Below are positions 1 to 12,581 of a DNA stretch of 32,154 nucleotides, in pieces. Each line of letters begins with the position of its first letter. Position 1 is the stretch's first letter. The DNA is from an uncultured Bacteroidales bacterium (GTDB taxonomy: Bacteria > Bacteroidota > Bacteroidia > Bacteroidales > F082): positions 1 to 32,154 of the forward strand of contig ONJF01000056.1 in NCBI GenBank assembly GCA_900318085.1, read 5' to 3'. The translations under genes were made by a program, and so were the position numbers. The notes under the pieces were generated by a model, which was given only the letters and a program-made list of their open reading frames with translations, made no database searches and was not told where the DNA came from.

Positions 1-1
1 T

Positions 2-2443
2 GTTGTCGCCGCATTGTTATTCGCGGCAAATGTGAATGCTCAAAACAATGAAGTGGTGTATGACACCACGAAGTACGAAGTACTTAACGAGGTGGTGGTT
101 GGCGGTTTGCGTGTCCAAAAGAACGCCCCCTTCTCCGTCACCAACATCGAGAAGGTGGAGCTCAACGACTTTTCGAAGACCGGCCAAGAGCTCCCCTTCC
201 TGTTCGCCAAGACGCCCGGCATCATCGCATGGGGTGAGAATGGCATAGGCTCCGGCACCTCTTACATGCGCATCCGTGGCGCTGGCGACTCGCGCATCAA
301 CGTCACCCTCGACGGCGTGTCGCTCAACTCGCCCGAGGATCAGTGCGTGTTTTGGGCCAACATGAACAGCTATGGCTCGCTGCTCGGCTCAGTGCAGATC
401 CAACGCGGAGTGGGTAGCTCCACTAACGGCGACGGCGCCTTCGGCGGCACGATATCGCTGACATCGGCCAAACCTTCCTTCGTGCCGAGTGCCGAGATCA
501 CGGGCTCCTACGGTTCATTCAACACGCTCAACTTCGGCGCCAAGGCCTCCACTGGCTTGCTTTGGAACCACCTCATCGTCGACGGAGCCTACCACGAGAC
601 CCACACCGACGGCTTCATCCACGGCACCAAGGGCCGCAGCGGCAGCTACTATGGCGGCCTCACCTGGATGGGCAAGAACTTCATCCTCCGCTACAAGAAC
701 ATCGGTAACTTCGAGATGACCGGCCAGGCCTGGAATGGCGTGACGGCAGGCAACAACGACCTCAGCCTTATGGACGGCACCTATGGTGAGCACACGGGCA
801 TCAAGACCTACGCCGATATGTATAAGGTGGGCTTGGGACAGTTCAACTCGCTCTACGAATACCTCGTCACCGACGAGGACGGTAACTTCGTCCAAGACGA
901 GAACGGCCACTACATGACCCAACGCTACCAGATGAACGACGGCACCTTCTGGGACCGCACCACCGACAACTTCTGGCAAGACCACAACCTGCTCTCCGCT
1001 GCATGGGAGATCAACGAGCACTGGTCGACCACGGCCACGCTGCACTACACCTACGGCTACGGCTACTACGAGGAGTTCCGTCCTAACAACAAACTTTCCA
1101 AGTTCGGCATGACCTATTACGACGCCGAAGGCAACCAAGTGAAAAAGACCGACTTCGTTCGCAAGAAAGGACTTCGTCAGGACACCTATGGCCTCGTGTG
1201 GTTCACCCGTTACAAGGACGCACATTGGAACATCATCGGCGGCATCTCGGCCCAGAATTTCCAAGGCAACCACTTCGGTTATGTGAATTATATCGCCAAC
1301 CAAGACGTCGCTGACAAATATCTCGCTGATGGCGACTACAAGTACTACGACTCCGACGCACAGAAGCTCGACGGCAACGTCTTCGTCAAGACGGCCTACA
1401 CCTTCGCCGACCACTGGACCATCTTCGGCGACATGCAGTTCCGCTATGTGGATTACAAGACCAACGGTATCAACGACAAGTTCTACGAAGAAAATAGCCA
1501 ATACTACAACCAAGAGCTTAACATCCACGAGAAATACCCCTTCTTCAACCCCAAAGGCGGTATCTCCTTCGACACGGACAGCCATCACGTCTACGCCTCC
1601 GTGGCCATGAGCCACCGCGAGCCCGAGCGTAACAACTTCACCGACAACGGCTCCTACCCCTTCCCCAAGCCCGAACAACTCCTCGACTATGAGTTGGGCT
1701 ACAACTACAACGGACGCATCTTCCAAGCCGGCGCCAACCTCTATTATATGGACTACAACAACCAGTTCGTGCAGACCGGTGCCGTCAGCGACATCGGCGA
1801 GGCCCTCACCACCAATATCAAGGACTCGTACCGCATGGGCGTCGAGCTGCAGGCTGGCGTGAGCCCCACCAAATGGTTGACCATCGAGGCCAACGCCGCC
1901 TTGAGCCAAAACAAGATCAAGGACTTCGACGAAGTCGTGGAGAACTGGGACGACTGGGAAGGCAACACCGATGCCAACGGCCAGGCCTACGACGGTGACG
2001 GCTACGATGTCATCCACTACGACAACTCCACCGACGGCTACGATGTCATCCACTACGACAACTCCACCTTAGCCTTCTCGCCTTCGGCCATCCTGAACGG
2101 TTTCGTCACCTTCCACCACAAGGGATTTGAGGCCACCTGGCACACGAACTACGTCTCACGTATGTATCTCGACAACACCCAGAACCTCGACCGTTCGTTG
2201 CCGGCCTACAGCACCTCCAACGTCAGCCTCGGCTACACGCTGAAACCCAAGAAAGTCGTCAAGGAAGCCATCTTGAAGGTGAACTTCAACAACATCTTCA
2301 ACAAGCGCTACGCCGCCAGCGGATGGGTCTACTCAGCCATCTGCGACAGCTACGGTCACCCCAACGACAACCGCTACTACCAGATCGGCTTCATCCCGAT
2401 GGCTGGTTTCCATGTCATGGGCAATCTGACGTTGAGGTTCTAA
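2..2443 (+). CDS. TonB-dependent outer-membrane receptor, 5' end cut by window edge
   Basis: This is an outer-membrane TonB-dependent receptor, which imports a scarce ligand (iron chelate, cobalamin, oligosaccharide or peptide) using TonB energy. The open frame enters from the left edge (the first codons read VVAALLFAANVNAQ, the end of a signal peptide), so the true start is outside the window. The mature protein starts almost at once with EVLNEVVVGG, a TonB-box and plug start, so it lacks the N-terminal carboxypeptidase-like domain of SusC proteins. The plug shows RIRGAGDSRINVTLDGVSLN and QIQRGVGSSTNGDGAFGG. A long beta-barrel rich in Tyr/Asn/Asp follows and ends in NLTLRF, with the usual terminal Phe. 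The substrate cannot be read from sequence. A heme/siderophore/B12-type ABC transporter lies about 10 kb away but is not linked. A 12-residue stretch is tandemly duplicated near residue 670. Confidence 0.93.
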   Translation, partial: VVAALLFAANVNAQNNEVVYDTTKYEVLNEVVVGGLRVQKNAPFSVTNIEKVELNDFSKTGQELPFLFAKTPGIIAWGENGIGSGTSYMRIRGAGDSRINVTLDGVSLNSPEDQCVFWANMNSYGSLLGSVQIQRGVGSSTNGDGAFGGTISLTSAKPSFVPSAEITGSYGSFNTLNFGAKASTGLLWNHLIVDGAYHETHTDGFIHGTKGRSGSYYGGLTWMGKNFILRYKNIGNFEMTGQAWNGVTAGNNDLSLMDGTYGEHTGIKTYADMYKVGLGQFNSLYEYLVTDEDGNFVQDENGHYMTQRYQMNDGTFWDRTTDNFWQDHNLLSAAWEINEHWSTTATLHYTYGYGYYEEFRPNNKLSKFGMTYYDAEGNQVKKTDFVRKKGLRQDTYGLVWFTRYKDAHWNIIGGISAQNFQGNHFGYVNYIANQDVADKYLADGDYKYYDSDAQKLDGNVFVKTAYTFADHWTIFGDMQFRYVDYKTNGINDKFYEENSQYYNQELNIHEKYPFFNPKGGISFDTDSHHVYASVAMSHREPERNNFTDNGSYPFPKPEQLLDYELGYNYNGRIFQAGANLYYMDYNNQFVQTGAVSDIGEALTTNIKDSYRMGVELQAGVSPTKWLTIEANAALSQNKIKDFDEVVENWDDWEGNTDANGQAYDGDGYDVIHYDNSTDGYDVIHYDNSTLAFSPSAILNGFVTFHHKGFEATWHTNYVSRMYLDNTQNLDRSLPAYSTSNVSLGYTLKPKKVVKEAILKVNFNNIFNKRYAASGWVYSAICDSYGHPNDNRYYQIGFIPMAGFHVMGNLTLRF
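1997..2068 (+). repeat. 36-bp perfect tandem duplication inside the receptor gene
   Basis: Positions 1997-2032 and 2033-2068 are identical 36-bp units. Each encodes DGYDVIHYDNST, so the reading frame is kept and 12 residues are added. The position is in the C-terminal half of the barrel, in an Asp/Tyr-rich stretch that is probably an extracellular loop or periplasmic turn. Confidence 0.95.
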
Positions 2444-2513
2444 AGCTGGATGAGATTCCCTTCGGGAAATCGAAGATTCAACGAAGTTAATGGAGAATTC
2501 GTCCAACTAAAAT

Positions 2514-2560
2514 GCGGCGGCTTGTAGCGTTTACAACGGGTAAACATTACTTGCCGCCGC
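2514..2560. terminator. GC-rich hairpin between convergent genes
   Basis: GCGGCGGC at 2514-2521 pairs perfectly with GCCGCCGC at 2553-2560. The 31-nt loop can itself fold (TTGTA with TACAA, or GTTTAC with GTAAAC). It lies between the stop codons of the receptor (+) and preA (-), so it probably acts as a transcription end for one or both. There is no long T-tract, so the termination mechanism is uncertain. Confidence 0.5.
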
Positions 2561-2583
2561 TTATTATACGAGTACTTTACGCC

Positions 2584-2600
2584 ATTCCCCGCAGGGGAAT
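2584..2600. terminator. Short hairpin next to the preA stop
   Basis: ATTCCCC (2584-2590), a 3-nt loop and GGGGAAT (2594-2600) form a perfect 7-bp stem 11 nt beyond the preA stop codon. A similar weaker stem, ATTCCC with GGGAAAT, sits at 2455-2470 just after the receptor stop. These are likely 3'-end structures. Confidence 0.45.
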
Positions 2601-2611
2601 CTTAATTCCGT

Positions 2612-4033
2612 TTATTTCGTTTTCGCAATCCGTTTAGCCACGCCGATGGCGCCTGTGGGACAGACAAGTCGGCAGAGATGGCAGCCCACGCAACGCTTTC
2701 CATCGAGATGCGGCTGACGCAAGTCGGCATCAAAGGTGATGGCTTGATGGCCGCCATCTTGACACGAGGTGTAGCAACGGCCGCAGCCGATGCATTGCTC
2801 ACGGTCGAAGGTGGGATACACGATGGTGTCGCGGTCGAGGTTGGTGGGCGTGTCGAAATTGGGCAGCTCCTCTCCTACCAGATCCTCGTCGATGATGCGG
2901 TAGCCATACTGCATCACGGCGGTGCACACCTGCACGTTGCTGCAGCCCAGCTGGATGAACTCCAAAGCGTCGCGCCAGGTCTCGATGCCACCGATGCCAC
3001 TCAACTCGATGCGTTTGCCATCGTTGGTGGCGGTGAAAATGGGATTTTTCGCCATCTCGAGGATATGACGCAAAGCGATGGGCTTCACGGCGCGGCCTGA
3101 GAGTCCGGAGACAGTCTTCTTTTCGGCAACTGCACCGCGACTGTTCATCGTCACGCTCTTGATTGTGTTGATGGCCGACACCGCATCGGCGCTGGCGAAG
3201 TGGGCAGCCATGGCGGGTTGGTTGATTTGTGTGATGTTGGGTGTCATCTTGGGGATGACCGGGATCTTGACATTATGTTTCACATAGGCCGTATAGAACA
3301 GCACCAGTTCCGAGTTCTGCCCCACGTCGCTGCCCATGCCGGCCAACTTCATCTGCGGGCAGGAGAAATTCAGCTCCACGGCGTCGACGCCGGCCTCTTC
3401 GGCCATTTTCGCCAGCGTGATCCACTCCGTCTCGGCGTTGCCCATGATGGAGGCGACGACAATTTTCGAGGGATAGTCCTTTTTCAGCCTGCGCAAGATG
3501 TCGAAGTCCACCTCCACGGGGTTCTCGCTCAGCTGCTCCATGTTACGGAAGCCGAAGAAATCGGAGCGGCCCGGCTCGTTGACGGCATCGAAGCGCGGCG
3601 AAACCTCGCGGATGTCCTCCATGCAGATGGTCTTGTAGAACACGCCCGCCCATCCAGCTTCGAAGGCCCGCGCCACCATCTCGTAGTTGGTGCAGATGGC
3701 CGACGAGGCGAGGAAGAAGGGATTCTCGCAAGGGATGCCGCAGAAGTCGATGGCGAGGCTGGGGAGATCCTTTTGTGGCTTCGTGCCTTTGACGGCTTCC
3801 GCCAGCTCCCTGATGCGGATCGGCCTATCGTAGTGGATGCAGGCTGCCTCGGCGGCTTGCAGCTCGGCGTCGCTGCACGGGTCGAGCCACAGTCCGGCGA
3901 CGGCTTCGTTGTCGAATCGTATGGCGCGAATGGTGCGTGCCGGGTCGCCATTCTTGCAGGCCTTGCTGCACGGCGCATCGGCGCAGAGCAGACAGCGTAC
4001 GGCTTCTTCTTGGAGGTGTATTTTTCTGGTCAT
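2612..4033 (-). CDS. preA: PreA-type dihydropyrimidine dehydrogenase subunit with N-terminal PreT-like Fe-S domain
   Basis: This is a flavin/Fe-S enzyme of the dihydropyrimidine dehydrogenase family; PreA with PreT reduces uracil and thymine using NADH in the cytoplasm. The 473-residue protein has three parts. Residues 1-85 resemble the Fe-S start of PreT/GltD (CLLCADAPCSKAC: C14, C17, C22, C26, then DRPIRIRELAEAV). About 90-390 is the FMN-binding dihydroorotate-dehydrogenase-like barrel (ELNFSCPQMK, GMGSDVGQ, KMTPNIT, SGIGGIETW). The C-terminus has two 4Fe-4S motifs (CIGCGRCYTSC and CVGCHLCRLVCP). Ordinary PreA is about 410 residues and lacks the first part. No preT with the FAD/NADH domain is adjacent, so the electron donor is unknown. 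The start at 4033 places MTRKI before the first Cys motif and is well supported. Confidence 0.9.
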   Translation of the reverse strand: MTRKIHLQEEAVRCLLCADAPCSKACKNGDPARTIRAIRFDNEAVAGLWLDPCSDAELQAAEAACIHYDRPIRIRELAEAVKGTKPQKDLPSLAIDFCGIPCENPFFLASSAICTNYEMVARAFEAGWAGVFYKTICMEDIREVSPRFDAVNEPGRSDFFGFRNMEQLSENPVEVDFDILRRLKKDYPSKIVVASIMGNAETEWITLAKMAEEAGVDAVELNFSCPQMKLAGMGSDVGQNSELVLFYTAYVKHNVKIPVIPKMTPNITQINQPAMAAHFASADAVSAINTIKSVTMNSRGAVAEKKTVSGLSGRAVKPIALRHILEMAKNPIFTATNDGKRIELSGIGGIETWRDALEFIQLGCSNVQVCTAVMQYGYRIIDEDLVGEELPNFDTPTNLDRDTIVYPTFDREQCIGCGRCYTSCQDGGHQAITFDADLRQPHLDGKRCVGCHLCRLVCPTGAIGVAKRIAKTK

Positions 4034-4062
4034 GGGGTCAGTTTTAGGATGTTTGGTGGGGA

Positions 4063-4070
4063 CAAAAGTA
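4063..4070 (-). promoter_or_regulatory. Candidate -7 element for preA
   Basis: Read on the minus strand this is TACTTTTG, matching the Bacteroidota consensus TAnnTTTG, 29 bp upstream of the preA start codon. No clear TTTG -33 box lies at the expected distance. That position falls at the degenerated outer edge of the CRISPR array. Confidence 0.4.
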
Positions 4071-4088
4071 GAAAATAATCTGTACTAA

Positions 4089-5384
4089 TAGCAGAATTGC
4101 TTGCATTTATCTTGTATCTTTGCTCTTTGAAACAACGATTGTGGCCATGGAAACGATGCTGACCTTGTTGTGAATTGCTTGCATTTATCTTGTATCTTTG
4201 CTCTTTGAAACAACATATCAGCACGAAATTGCTCTTCCTCATAAGTTGTGAATTGCTTGCATTTATCTTGTATCTTTGCTCTTTGAAACAACTTGGATGT
4301 ATTAAGGGACGAAGTAGAGACAGTTGTGAATTGCTTGCATTTATCTTGTATCTTTGCTCTTTGAAACAACCGAAAAATGCTTTACGTTGCTTGAAGTAGA
4401 GTTGTGAATTGCTTGCATTTATCTTGTATCTTTGCTCTTTGAAACAACTTATGAGTTTACGATAGAATCTAACAATTGTTGTGAATTGCTTGCATTTATC
4501 TTGTATCTTTGCTCTTTGAAACAACGGGCGTAGTTGCTGTCGTAACCGATGACCTGTTGTGAATTGCTTGCATTTATCTTGTATCTTTGCTCTTTGAAAC
4601 AACTTATAGGCTATATTTGCATAAACCTAATCAGTTGTGAATTGCTTGCATTTATCTTGTATCTTTGCTCTTTGAAACAACCGACAAACTCGTCTATCAT
4701 CTTCCCGTTGGAGTTGTGAATTGCTTGCATTTATCTTGTATCTTTGCTCTTTGAAACAACGAATACGAAAAGCCTTGAATCTTAAAACCTGTTGTGAATT
4801 GCTTGCATTTATCTTGTATCTTTGCTCTTTGAAACAACTCAATTTATCCCACAATATCGCGCCAACGGGTTGTGAATTGCTTGCATTTATCTTGTATCTT
4901 TGCTCTTTGAAACAACCCGCAGACGGACTTCGACTTCGACGCGGACGTTGTGAATTGCTTGCATTTATCTTGTATCTTTGCTCTTTGAAACAACTCTTAA
5001 AACTTTGGACTTACCTTATGGTTTGTTGTGAATTGCTTGCATTTATCTTGTATCTTTGCTCTTTGAAACAACTTTCTGTCGTGAGACCCCGCGCCGCCCT
5101 CCGTTGTGAATTGCTTGCATTTATCTTGTATCTTTGCTCTTTGAAACAACATAGGGACAAGAAAAAAACCGCTTCAAATAGTTGTGAATTGCTTGCATTT
5201 ATCTTGTATCTTTGCTCTTTGAAACAACGGCAGCGGGGACGATTGAAAGCCTATTGAAGTTGTGAATTGCTTGCATTTATCTTGTATCTTTGCTCTTTGA
5301 AACAACGTCAGTGTGATGGTGGGCATCAGCGCAATTGTTGTGAATTGCTTGCATTTATCTTGTATCTTTGCTCTTTGAAACAAC
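4089..5384 (+). CRISPR. Type II-C CRISPR array, 17 repeats and 16 spacers
   Basis: There are 16 identical 48-bp repeats (GTTGTGAATTGC...CTTTGAAACAAC) starting at 4167, 4245, 4323, 4401, 4478, 4556, 4634, 4713, 4791, 4869, 4947, 5025, 5103, 5181, 5259 and 5337. A 17th, at 4089, has its first five bases changed (GTTGT to TAGCA). Spacers are 30 bp except one of 29 (4449-4477) and one of 31 (4682-4712). No duplicated spacers were seen. Repeat ends are complementary (GTTGT/ACAAC). The plus-strand direction is chosen because the tracrRNA anti-repeat at 11469-11491 pairs with the plus-strand 5' half of the repeat. The degraded copy at 4089 suggests the old end is there and new spacers enter on the cas2 side. 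Confidence 0.98.
4115..5370 (+). promoter_or_regulatory. Candidate promoter element inside every CRISPR repeat
   Basis: Repeat positions 27-34 read TATCTTTG in all 17 repeats (for example 4193-4200), an exact fit to the Bacteroidota -7 box TAnnTTTG. GTTG at repeat positions 1-4 is a possible -33 box, 22 bp upstream (consensus is about 19-21). A start site would fall about 5-8 nt later, just before the spacer. Each repeat could thus start a short crRNA. This parallels repeat-borne promoters known in Neisseria type II-C arrays, but it is inferred here from sequence only. Confidence 0.5.
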
Positions 5385-5436
5385 ACGATATGTGTAAAGC
5401 AAAGAGCCACAACAATTTAGAAGTTGTTTCAGAAAA
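5385..5436. other. Probable leader-side flank of the CRISPR array
   Basis: This AT-rich stretch lies between the last perfect repeat and the terminator hairpin next to cas2. It holds GTTGTTTCA at 5423-5431, the reverse complement of the last nine bases of the repeat, and ACAAC at 5409-5413, which is complementary to its first five bases. It may be a leader segment or a repeat relic. The leader role rests on the intact repeats on this side and the degraded repeat on the other. Confidence 0.4.
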
Positions 5437-5473
5437 GAAAAATCCAGCTCATTTGAGTTGGATTTTTCTTTGT
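5437..5473. terminator. Strong bidirectional terminator between cas2 and the CRISPR array
   Basis: Positions 5437-5451 and 5454-5468 form a 15-bp stem with one G-T pair (GAAAAATCCAGCTCA with TGAGTTGGATTTTTC). A T-run follows the stem on the plus strand and an A-run precedes it, so it can stop transcription in both directions. It would end the cas9-cas1-cas2 message on the minus strand and crRNA transcripts on the plus strand. Confidence 0.85.
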
Positions 5474-5492
5474 TATGACTATTTTTCCCGAT

Positions 5493-6735
<1,243 letters not shown>

Positions 6736-6739
<4 letters not shown>

Positions 6740-11406: not shown

Positions 11407-11414
11407 CAAAATTA
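11407..11414 (-). promoter_or_regulatory. Candidate -7 element for cas9
   Basis: On the minus strand this reads TAATTTTG, a match to TAnnTTTG, 33 bp upstream of the cas9 start codon. A matching -33 box is not obvious. It is back to back with the tracrRNA promoter, so cas9 and tracrRNA diverge from one roughly 60-bp control region. Confidence 0.45.
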
Positions 11415-11434: not shown

Positions 11435-11463
11435 TTGCAGTATTGAAAAATTATGTATTTTTG
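11435..11463 (+). promoter_or_regulatory. Promoter of the tracrRNA
   Basis: TTG at 11435-11437 and TATTTTTG at 11456-11463 (TAnnTTTG) are 18 bp apart, close to the Bacteroidota promoter layout. The expected start site, about 11468-11470, coincides with the first base of the anti-repeat. Confidence 0.7.
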
Positions 11464-11468
11464 CAGCA

Positions 11469-11552
11469 CAAGATATGCAGCAATTCACAATAAGGATTAT
11501 TCCGTTGTGAAAACATCAAGTTCGGGGCGATTTCGGTCGCCTCGTCTTTTTT
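11469..11552 (+). ncRNA. tracrRNA, divergent from cas9
   Basis: tracrRNA pairs with the crRNA repeat and anchors it in Cas9. Bases 11479-11491 pair with repeat positions 1-13 (12 Watson-Crick pairs and one G-U). Bases 11476-11478 pair with repeat 15-17, and 11469-11475 with repeat 20-26; repeat bases 14 and 18-19 are bulged. The segment AATAAGG right after the anti-repeat matches the nexus start known from Neisseria II-C tracrRNA. The RNA ends in an 8-bp GC-rich hairpin and T-run at 11523-11552. Estimated length is about 84 nt. It lies outside the array and cas operon, on the opposite strand. No expression data are available; the call rests on pairing plus promoter plus terminator. Confidence 0.9.
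11523..11552 (+). terminator. Intrinsic terminator of the tracrRNA
   Basis: CGGGGCGA (11523-11530) pairs with TCGCCTCG (11537-11544) around the loop TTTCGG, with one G-T pair, followed by TCTTTTTT. Confidence 0.9.
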
Positions 11553-11632: not shown

Positions 11633-11648
11633 GGTGATGTTTTTTTAC

Positions 11649-11656
11649 TATTTTTG
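11649..11656 (+). promoter_or_regulatory. -7 element of the WYL regulator gene
   Basis: TATTTTTG matches TAnnTTTG, with a predicted start site near 11662. It shows that the longer reading frame beginning at 11634 is not the true start, because that codon lies upstream of the promoter. Confidence 0.6.
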
Positions 11657-11675
11657 CACAAAAATCATTTTTCTA

Positions 11676-12581
11676 ATGAAAAGCTCGAACACATTTAGAC
11701 AATTCACCTGGCTAGTGAACACCATACTACGTGCCGAAAAGATCGATTTCGAACACATCTGCCAACTTTGGCTCTCCAACGACCTAAACGAAAGCCGTCC
11801 CCTCTCCCGCACCACCTTCTACCGCATCCGCCAAGCCATCGACGACATGTTCGGCATCTGCATCGAATGCGACAACCAACACCAATACTATATAGCCAAC
11901 CCCGAAGCACTCCGCGACAACTCCACACAAAACTGGATGCTCCGCACCCTCACCGTCAACAATATCCTCCTCGACGGCCTCTCCATCAAGGACCAACTCC
12001 TGTTGGAGGACATCCCCGCCGGGTTGGAACACCTACAAACCGTTATCAACGCCATCAAAGACCATCACACCTTACGAATGGGATACAAGAAATTCAGCGA
12101 TTCAGAGCCCTACTCCACCCTCATCGAACCCTACTGCCTGAAACTCTTCCACCAACGCTGGTACCTGCTCGGCAAAACCGAAAGAAAAAAGGGCAACCTC
12201 GGAGTCTTCGCCCTCGACCGCATGACGAAACTCACCGAAACCGACCACTGCTTCAAAATGGATCCGACATTTGACGCAGAGACCTTTTTCCATGATTATT
12301 TCGGAGTCATCCCTGACCAAAACGTCAAAGCAGAACGCATCGTGCTACGCGCCTACTCACCCATGGACAACTACCTGCGCACCTTGCCCTTGCACCACTC
12401 CCAAAAAGAGATAGCCACCGAAAAACAAAGCGCTCTCTTTGAGTACCATGTGGCCCCCACCCATGATTTCATCCAAACCATCCTCAAAGAAGGCAACGAA
12501 TTGGAGGTCATAGAGCCAAAATCGTTGCGCAAAACCATTCATGACGAGTTGACAAAGGCACTAAAACGATATAGGAAATAG
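11676..12581 (+). CDS. WYL-domain transcriptional regulator
   Basis: WYL proteins are DNA-binding regulators that sense nucleic acid or nucleotide-like ligands; several control CRISPR or phage-defence genes. The 301-residue protein (start MKSSNTFRQF at 11676, chosen because a -7 box sits at 11649) has an N-terminal winged-helix-like region (about 5-75, with LSRTTFYRIRQAIDDMFGI). The WYL core is at about 130-190 (MGYKKF, LIEPYCLKLFHQRWYLLGK at 148-167, then FALDRM). A C-terminal WCX-like region follows (VLRAYSPMDNYLRTLPLHHSQ). It is transcribed away from cas9 in the same direction as the tracrRNA and starts 124 bp after it. Regulation of the CRISPR locus is possible but unproven; such regulators are also common elsewhere in Bacteroidota. 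Confidence 0.88.
   Translation: MKSSNTFRQFTWLVNTILRAEKIDFEHICQLWLSNDLNESRPLSRTTFYRIRQAIDDMFGICIECDNQHQYYIANPEALRDNSTQNWMLRTLTVNNILLDGLSIKDQLLLEDIPAGLEHLQTVINAIKDHHTLRMGYKKFSDSEPYSTLIEPYCLKLFHQRWYLLGKTERKKGNLGVFALDRMTKLTETDHCFKMDPTFDAETFFHDYFGVIPDQNVKAERIVLRAYSPMDNYLRTLPLHHSQKEIATEKQSALFEYHVAPTHDFIQTILKEGNELEVIEPKSLRKTIHDELTKALKRYRK

Follow-up and report, generated by a model that had tools for sequence, protein, structure and literature searches.

A candidate Bacteroidota-type promoter element within the repeats of a Bacteroidales type II-C CRISPR array

Is each spacer of a CRISPR array in the Bacteroidales, which are among the main gut bacteria, transcribed from a promoter in the repeat before it? 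This question is raised by an array from an uncultured member of the order (contig ONJF01000056.1 of assembly GCA_900318085.1), whose repeats contain a match to a promoter element of the Bacteroidota. We analyzed positions 1 to 32,154 of the forward strand of this contig, which we call the window, along with related repeats from other genomes. The features of the locus are listed in Table 1.

Table 1. Coordinates in the window of the array, the cas genes, the predicted tracrRNA, and the proposed promoter elements
Feature	Position	Strand	Remarks
CRISPR array	4089..5384	+	17 repeats of 48 nt, spacers of 29-31 nt; strand from the tracrRNA anti-repeat
Outermost repeat, probably the oldest	4089..4136	+	bases 1-5 differ from the other repeats; box and 3' tail unchanged
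17 TATCTTTG boxes, proposed -7 elements	4115-4122 to 5363-5370	+	repeat positions 27-34
TTG, proposed -33 element	4168..5340	+	repeat positions 2-4 of repeats 2-17; 22 nt from the box; missing in repeat 1
Predicted start sites	4127 (first repeat) to 5375 (last repeat)	+	repeat position 39, taking TAnnTTTG as -12 to -5
Leader-side region, last repeat to cas2 end	5385..5492		inverted repeat 5434-5451/5454-5471 within
cas2	5493..5825	-	TIGR01573, 70.6 bits
cas1, type II form	5825..6739	-	TIGR03639, 316.5 bits
cas9, 1545 aa	6736..11373	-	TIGR01865, 383.1 bits
TAATTTTG, possible cas9 promoter box	11407..11414	-	ahead of cas9
TATTTTTG, proposed tracrRNA promoter box	11456..11463	+	same placement in relatives sharing the repeat
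Predicted tracrRNA	11468..11552	+	anti-repeat from +1, hairpin, GC-rich hairpin, then T run

The array and its tracrRNA gene

The locus is type II-C, given its gene content and the predicted tracrRNA: cas9, cas1, and cas2 are the sole cas genes there (no csn2 and no cas4), and they adjoin each other between the array and the tracrRNA gene. The neighboring ORF farther out (11634-12581) had no NCBIfam match. The 17 repeats are identical except that in the outermost one, TAGCA replaces GTTGT. By analogy with Riemerella anatipestifer, as described in the available text of PMC6008519, we infer that new spacers are acquired at the cas2-proximal (leader) side.

The predicted tracrRNA has a folding energy of -25.4 kcal/mol (z -3.8), and its anti-repeat is complementary, in silico, to the 5' part of the repeat as read on the + strand. 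This implies that the crRNAs are transcribed from the + strand, toward cas2. We also noticed that the end of the anti-repeat can fold onto an internal TTGTGAA copy, which mimics the repeat start (11484-11511).

Because the crRNA strand is the + strand, TATCTTTG is on the crRNA strand. As the first-pass annotation of this DNA had claimed, TATCTTTG occupies the same position in all 17 repeats, so each repeat has, by sequence match, a box of the main sigma factor on the crRNA strand. In sigma-ABfr promoters, TAnnTTTG is at -7 and TTTG is near -33 (PMC7366714, PMC9723704), and TAnnTTTG spans -12 to -5 (PMC9723704); here, the same boxes are inside a CRISPR repeat. Bacteroides thetaiotaomicron itself lacks CRISPR (PMC7366714). 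The GTTG at the repeat start, which was the candidate for the -33 box, is present in 16 of the 17 repeats and missing from the first. (We scored any TTG that was 17-23 nt from the box.) The combination TTG-N22-TATCTTTG has 16 matches in the window and none in shuffles. However, this TTG lies in the part of the repeat that pairs with the tracrRNA, so it is not an independent sign of a promoter. The same box had also been seen before several other genes of the window, and this seems reasonable for at least two of them, cas9 and the tracrRNA gene.

TAnnTTTG occurs 37 times in the whole window, versus 15.4 expected, and 17 of the 37 occurrences are copies of one repeat, which amount to one event. 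The chance of finding TAnnTTTG in a single long Bacteroidales repeat is about 6% (4.19 of 69, from dinucleotide shuffles). Thus, the window alone is weak evidence, and the comparison with relatives decides.

Related repeats and promoter-like sites

We obtained cas9 loci from named genomes (45 loci), from a phylum-wide draw in which 67 of 392 genomes were over the cut-off of the cas9 model (the window's own genome included), and from a draw within the same order (60 of 125 genomes over the cut-off; these genomes were not picked at random). Arrays were detected as 14-mers repeated at CRISPR spacing; 30 of the 172 fetched loci had no array. This gave 127 distinct repeats, of which 96 are long (at least 44 nt). 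Among the arrays with a confident anti-repeat, 50 of 51 agreed in orientation with the 5' motif of the repeat, and the 5' motif was then applied to all.

An exact TAnnTTTG is present on the crRNA strand of 55 of the 69 distinct long Bacteroidales repeats, and it always starts at positions 23-28. Shuffles of these 69 repeats had a mean of 4.19 matches and a maximum of 11. Allowing up to one mismatch, 64 of the 69 repeats match; of the 14 without the exact box, 5 are off by two or more bases. On the reverse strand, TAnnTTTG was found in none of the 69 repeats and in none of any other group. The 20 distinct control repeats, which are from type I-B, type I-C, and Cas13a loci of the same order, lack the motif on either strand. 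(14 of the 38 control loci had no array; one of the two Cas13a loci gave only a 25-nt repeat, which may not be CRISPR; and one set of 30 type I-C loci, 26 of them with arrays, was left out of the motif scoring.)

Among other long Bacteroidia repeats, the exact box is found in 2 of 14, and 12 of 14 are within one mismatch, mostly as TAnnTTTA or TAnnTTAG. Of the 11 long repeats from other classes of the phylum, 2 contain the exact box, and the usual sequence at that place is GTTCTTTG or TTTCTTTG. Several of these repeats, but not all, have ATATT a few bases later (L086, L088, L141, L142, and others). Neither of the two long Fibrobacter repeats has the exact box. We noticed that two loci on Fibrobacter-labelled contigs, L023 and L028, encode Cas9 proteins that share 69% and 62% identity with the Cas9 of the window over the best segment, and that their repeats have a palindrome in place of the box (CTACTTTAAGTAG and CTAGTTTAACTAG).

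These repeats share ancestry. With the box masked, clustering at 90%, 80%, 75%, and 70% identity gave 60, 29, 12, and 4 clusters, and the first member has the box in 46, 18, 6, and 2 of them. The signal is strong relative to shuffles, but it represents far fewer than 69 independent cases.

The annotation had proposed checking whether TAnnTTTG is kept more than other bases of the repeat. In an alignment that was made without regard to the box, the six fixed columns of the box average 1.15 bits, as compared to 0.40 bits for the 10 columns after it and 1.67 bits for the part that pairs with the tracrRNA. The box is therefore better kept than what follows it, but not better than the paired part. 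The mean pairwise identity between species is 0.92 for the box and 0.35 for the 8 nt after it, which are the least conserved segment.

The shorter repeats, of 36 nt, are another matter. None of those from Bacteroidia have the exact box (0/8 in Bacteroidales and 0/6 in other Bacteroidia, or 0/14 together), although it is found in 4 of 17 from other classes, so the box is not universal. The annotation had named functional relatives without the box as a case against its proposal, and the 36-nt type II-C repeats of Bacteroidia touch on this. Because they have a different architecture, we take them as a limit on the scope of the proposal, and they do not refute it for long repeats. The short repeats in our survey that are of the GTTGTGGTTTGATTAAAG type, which presumably is the type of Flavobacterium, are 36 nt and lack the box. 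We also noticed that 36-nt type II-C repeats end in a TATAAT-like hexamer (GATATT, TACATT, or TATATT; for instance L107, L113, L121, and L173). Across the 31 distinct 36-nt repeats, the best match to TATAAT in the last 9 nt averages 3.81 of 6 positions, versus 3.14 in shuffles (standard deviation 0.16, maximum 3.61). This end may be a promoter of another type.

We also compared the box to TAnnTTTG sites upstream of genes. Of the 55 repeats with the exact box, 38 have a gap of 18-19 nt between TTG and the box, 16 have a gap of 20-23 nt, and one has no TTG. At 208 upstream sites from the same order and the window's own genome, the gap peaks at 18-20 nt (11, 17, and 19 sites), with 9 sites at 22 nt. 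Thus, most of the relatives have a gap that is favored at genomic sites, and the window's own gap of 22 nt is off the peak. The bases that flank the window's box are at the 34th percentile of genomic sites and at the 97th percentile of random flanks.

Is the box tied to the host's sigma factor? In 46 upstream regions from the window's own genome (the window and 20 other contigs of 93), TAnnTTTG occurs 24 times in the sense orientation and 9 times in antisense, versus 3.0 in mononucleotide shuffles. In pooled Bacteroidales upstream regions, the counts are 228 sense and 184 antisense, versus 46.9 in shuffles, and in this set, the 12 motifs of the same form with the strongest strand bias do not include TAnnTTTG. 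Other classes have 39 sense and 32 antisense, versus 17.8. Given the high antisense count, the lack of a top strand bias, and the enrichment in other classes, the tie between the box and the host's sigma factor is weak. The sequences are only suggestive of such a tie, and we do not claim that the box tracks the sigma factor, as TAnnTTTG is above shuffles in other classes as well.

tracrRNA pairing, decay of the oldest repeats, and other explanations

We considered whether pairing with the tracrRNA could be the reason for the box, and rejected this. Across 50 Bacteroidales loci, the fraction of repeats that pair with the tracrRNA is 0.72-1.00 at each position before the box and 0.86 at the box's first T. 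Over the rest of the box it is 0.58, 0.52, 0.28, 0.38, 0.32, 0.52, and 0.70, and beyond the box it is 0.18-0.62. Because pairing drops within the box, beginning at its second base, pairing does not explain the box. The apparent pairing climbs again at the last base of the box (0.70) and at the next base (0.62); we counted G-U as paired and allowed gaps, and part of the profile is alignment noise. Also, the 36-nt repeats that lack the box have anti-repeats too, so the box is not needed for pairing with the tracrRNA.

The tracrRNA genes themselves often have the box. TAnnTTTG places +1 at 15-34 nt before the end of the anti-repeat in 60 of the 67 Bacteroidales tracrRNA genes with the CACAATAAGG signature, and the same placement is found in 5 of 13 from other Bacteroidia, 1 of 10 from other classes, and 0 of 2 from Fibrobacter (these are raw counts). 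A 6-nt match was found at 48 Bacteroidales loci, and in 30 of them the +1 of the tracrRNA is opposite the first T of the repeat's box, which suggests that in most such loci the tracrRNA begins where the box begins. (We allowed the start to shift by up to 2 nt, and the shift was 0 in 41 of the 48; two further loci had no match.) Relative to the box, the end of the duplex, as judged from alignments, varies between -6 and +5. The correlation between the position of the box and the end of pairing is -0.11 (rho) in the gapped alignment and 0.51-0.52 only if the predicted starts are the anchor.

Another line of evidence is the decay of the outermost, presumably oldest, repeats. We could compare both ends in 44 arrays, and their leader-side repeats are almost unchanged. 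In the outermost repeat, the positions that changed were 308 of 1044 (30%) before the box, 13 of 264 (5%) at the six fixed positions of the box, and 25 of 674 (4%) after it. The exact box is kept in 37 of the 44 outermost repeats and in 18 of the 25 that are eroded (three or more changes). Erosion extends beyond the first base of the box in 7 of these 25 (uniform expectation 0.47, p 0.04). The TTG at 17-23 nt is found in only 8 of the 18 eroded repeats whose box is intact. The outermost repeat does not contribute a tracrRNA-pairing part to any useful crRNA, so a promoter in each repeat predicts that its 3' half would be kept. We count in favor of a promoter that the box is outside of the main tracrRNA duplex and is mostly kept in eroded repeats. 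However, windows within the 3' tail are kept in 18-21 of the 25 eroded repeats, or as often as the box, so the decay fits any function of the 3' half and does not single out a promoter. In the available text of a study of type II-C arrays (Feussner 2025, PMC12080349), the oldest (extra) repeat is mutated mostly in its first 15 nt, and upkeep of a promoter is suggested; words that start with "bacteroid" or "flavobact" are absent from its main text.

These results also bear on explanations without a promoter in the repeat. First, read-through or a promoter ahead of the outermost repeat could yield the array as a single precursor, with TATCTTTG inherited without any promoter function. Related repeats share descent, each repeat family counts as only one event for the motif, and 5 of the 44 arrays do have TAnnTTTG in the 60 nt that precede the outermost repeat. 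But 39 of the 44 do not. In the window, we looked for TAnnTTTG on the + strand ahead of the array (1-4114) and found none, and the gene beside the array (2612-4033, - strand) points away from it. Furthermore, the outermost repeat of a single precursor would be in no useful crRNA, yet its box and tail are mostly kept, and pairing with the tracrRNA does not require the box. We consider a single precursor to be unlikely.

Second, the box might be a recognition element or ruler for Cas1-Cas2 during spacer insertion, instead of a promoter. The length of the repeat grows with the position of the box (rho 0.72), which leaves an almost constant stretch between the box and the 3' end: in 36 of 55 repeats, 12 nt separate the predicted +1 from the spacer. 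This would suit an integrase ruler as well as a promoter. However, if insertion is at the leader side, as reported for R. anatipestifer (available text of PMC6008519), then the outermost repeat gets no new spacers, yet the exact box persists in 18/25 of the eroded ones. Also, the form and the spacing of the box match those of promoter-like sites upstream of genes. A role in insertion without a promoter seems improbable to us.

Third, it is very unlikely that the segment functions as RNA and signals cleavage or trimming of the crRNA's 5' part. In outermost repeats, the tail that follows the box is kept like the box itself (25/674 versus 13/264 positions changed), but between species, no segment is less conserved than the 8 nt that follow the box (0.35 versus 0.92), and the fixed TA and TTTG around two freer bases resemble a promoter pattern in DNA.

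A transcription model and its precedents

The best reading of these comparisons is that each repeat contains a promoter of the sigma-ABfr type, and we put the probability of this at roughly 75%. The proposal of a Bacteroidota-type promoter in every repeat thus has in silico support from the strand of the box, its presence in 55 of 69 long relatives, and a TTG gap that, in most relatives, is favored at genomic sites. The 48-nt repeat would be modular. Positions 1 to about 27 would form the duplex with the tracrRNA, with their TTG serving as a -33-like element, and positions 27-34 would be the -7 box (TAnnTTTG) for the main sigma factor of Bacteroidota. Transcription would start near position 39 and proceed toward cas2, which is the side where new spacers presumably join. 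The primary transcript would comprise about 10 nt of repeat, the spacer, and then the next repeat, whose 5' part would pair with the tracrRNA and be cut by RNase III, by analogy with Campylobacter. How far a spacer is from any outside promoter would not affect its expression.

The idea that a start site would fall just ahead of the spacer agrees with the predicted +1, which is 10 nt before the spacer. But the accompanying claim, that 5' processing of the crRNAs would be unnecessary, is not supported: the predicted transcript opens with 10 nt of the repeat (12 nt in 36 of the 55 relatives), so the 5' end of the crRNA would probably still be trimmed.

A broader reading is that the 46-48 nt repeats of Bacteroidales type II-C systems are long because two modules stand end to end: a part that pairs with the tracrRNA and, from the tracrRNA's 5' end, a Bacteroidota promoter core. 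The type of promoter would follow the sigma code of the lineage, with TAnnTTTG in long repeats and a TATAAT-like end in 36-nt repeats, and the start of the tracrRNA would be tied to the position of the box. We offer this combination tentatively, as the odds are somewhat against it.

Repeat-borne promoters are not a new principle. Zhang and colleagues reportedly described, in 2013, crRNA promoters within the repeats of a type II-C array from Neisseria meningitidis. The available text on the type II-C array of Campylobacter jejuni describes a promoter in each repeat, with the start within the spacer (Dugar 2013, PMC3656092). Our model resembles these systems in having one promoter element per repeat, on the crRNA strand, with a separate start for each spacer and with only cas9, cas1, and cas2. 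In contrast, their -10 box is in the 3' part of the repeat and transcription starts in the spacer; here, the repeats are 48 nt, and the distance to the spacer is 14 nt from the end of TAnnTTTG and 10 nt from the predicted start. So, the predicted start is not of the Campylobacter type, which is inside the spacer and leaves no repeat-derived 5' part.

Within the Bacteroidota, the reading of the first-pass annotation was partly anticipated, as promoters with a repeat-encoded TTG (-33) have already been put forward for Flavobacterium columnare (PMC8092290, where the support was eight array reads) and F. psychrophilum (PMC10309648, where TAnnTTTG is named for cas9 and not for the repeats). These proposals and ours both concern a type II-C array that is transcribed toward the leader and has a TTG near the repeat start as the -33 element. 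Unlike ours, the available text of those proposals names only TTG for the repeats. R. anatipestifer has 47-nt repeats, cas9-cas1-cas2, and an anti-repeat upstream of cas9 (TGAAAGCAATTCACAA), much like the window's locus; the available text reports no potential promoters in its repeats and names the BDGP neural network, for the leader (PMC5006608). In the available passages of the CC-licensed PMC literature, we found no mention of TAnnTTTG within CRISPR repeats. What would be new here, judging from sequence, is the box, how far it is from the spacer, and how it fits the start of the tracrRNA.

If every repeat is a promoter, then old spacers could be expressed like new ones, and the length of the array need not dilute expression. 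Type II-C arrays are reportedly hard to orient (available text of PMC12638026), and tools that rely on a leader promoter may misread the orientation of arrays like this one. Long repeats have been noted in type II-C systems of Bacteroidota (cited in the available text of PMC5704556), and a promoter module would offer a reason for them. Users of these Cas9 systems should be aware that a bare repeat may drive transcription. The predicted start sites become directly testable.

Other scans gave little. A sigma-70 scan of the array found 3 sites, versus 4.2 expected; a terminator scan of 3900-5700 found none; a plasmid search with the repeat as the query found none; and there was no match in Rfam. 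On the leader side, GTTGTTTC (5423-5430) is the exact reverse complement of the 3' end of the repeat (GAAACAAC), and RNA transcribed from the last repeat could form a hairpin with it. Finally, the ORF at 14-2443, which by eye looks like an outer-membrane receptor, contains a tandem duplication at 2000-2068, with GGCTACGATGTCATCCACTACGACAACTCCACC present twice, 36 nt apart.
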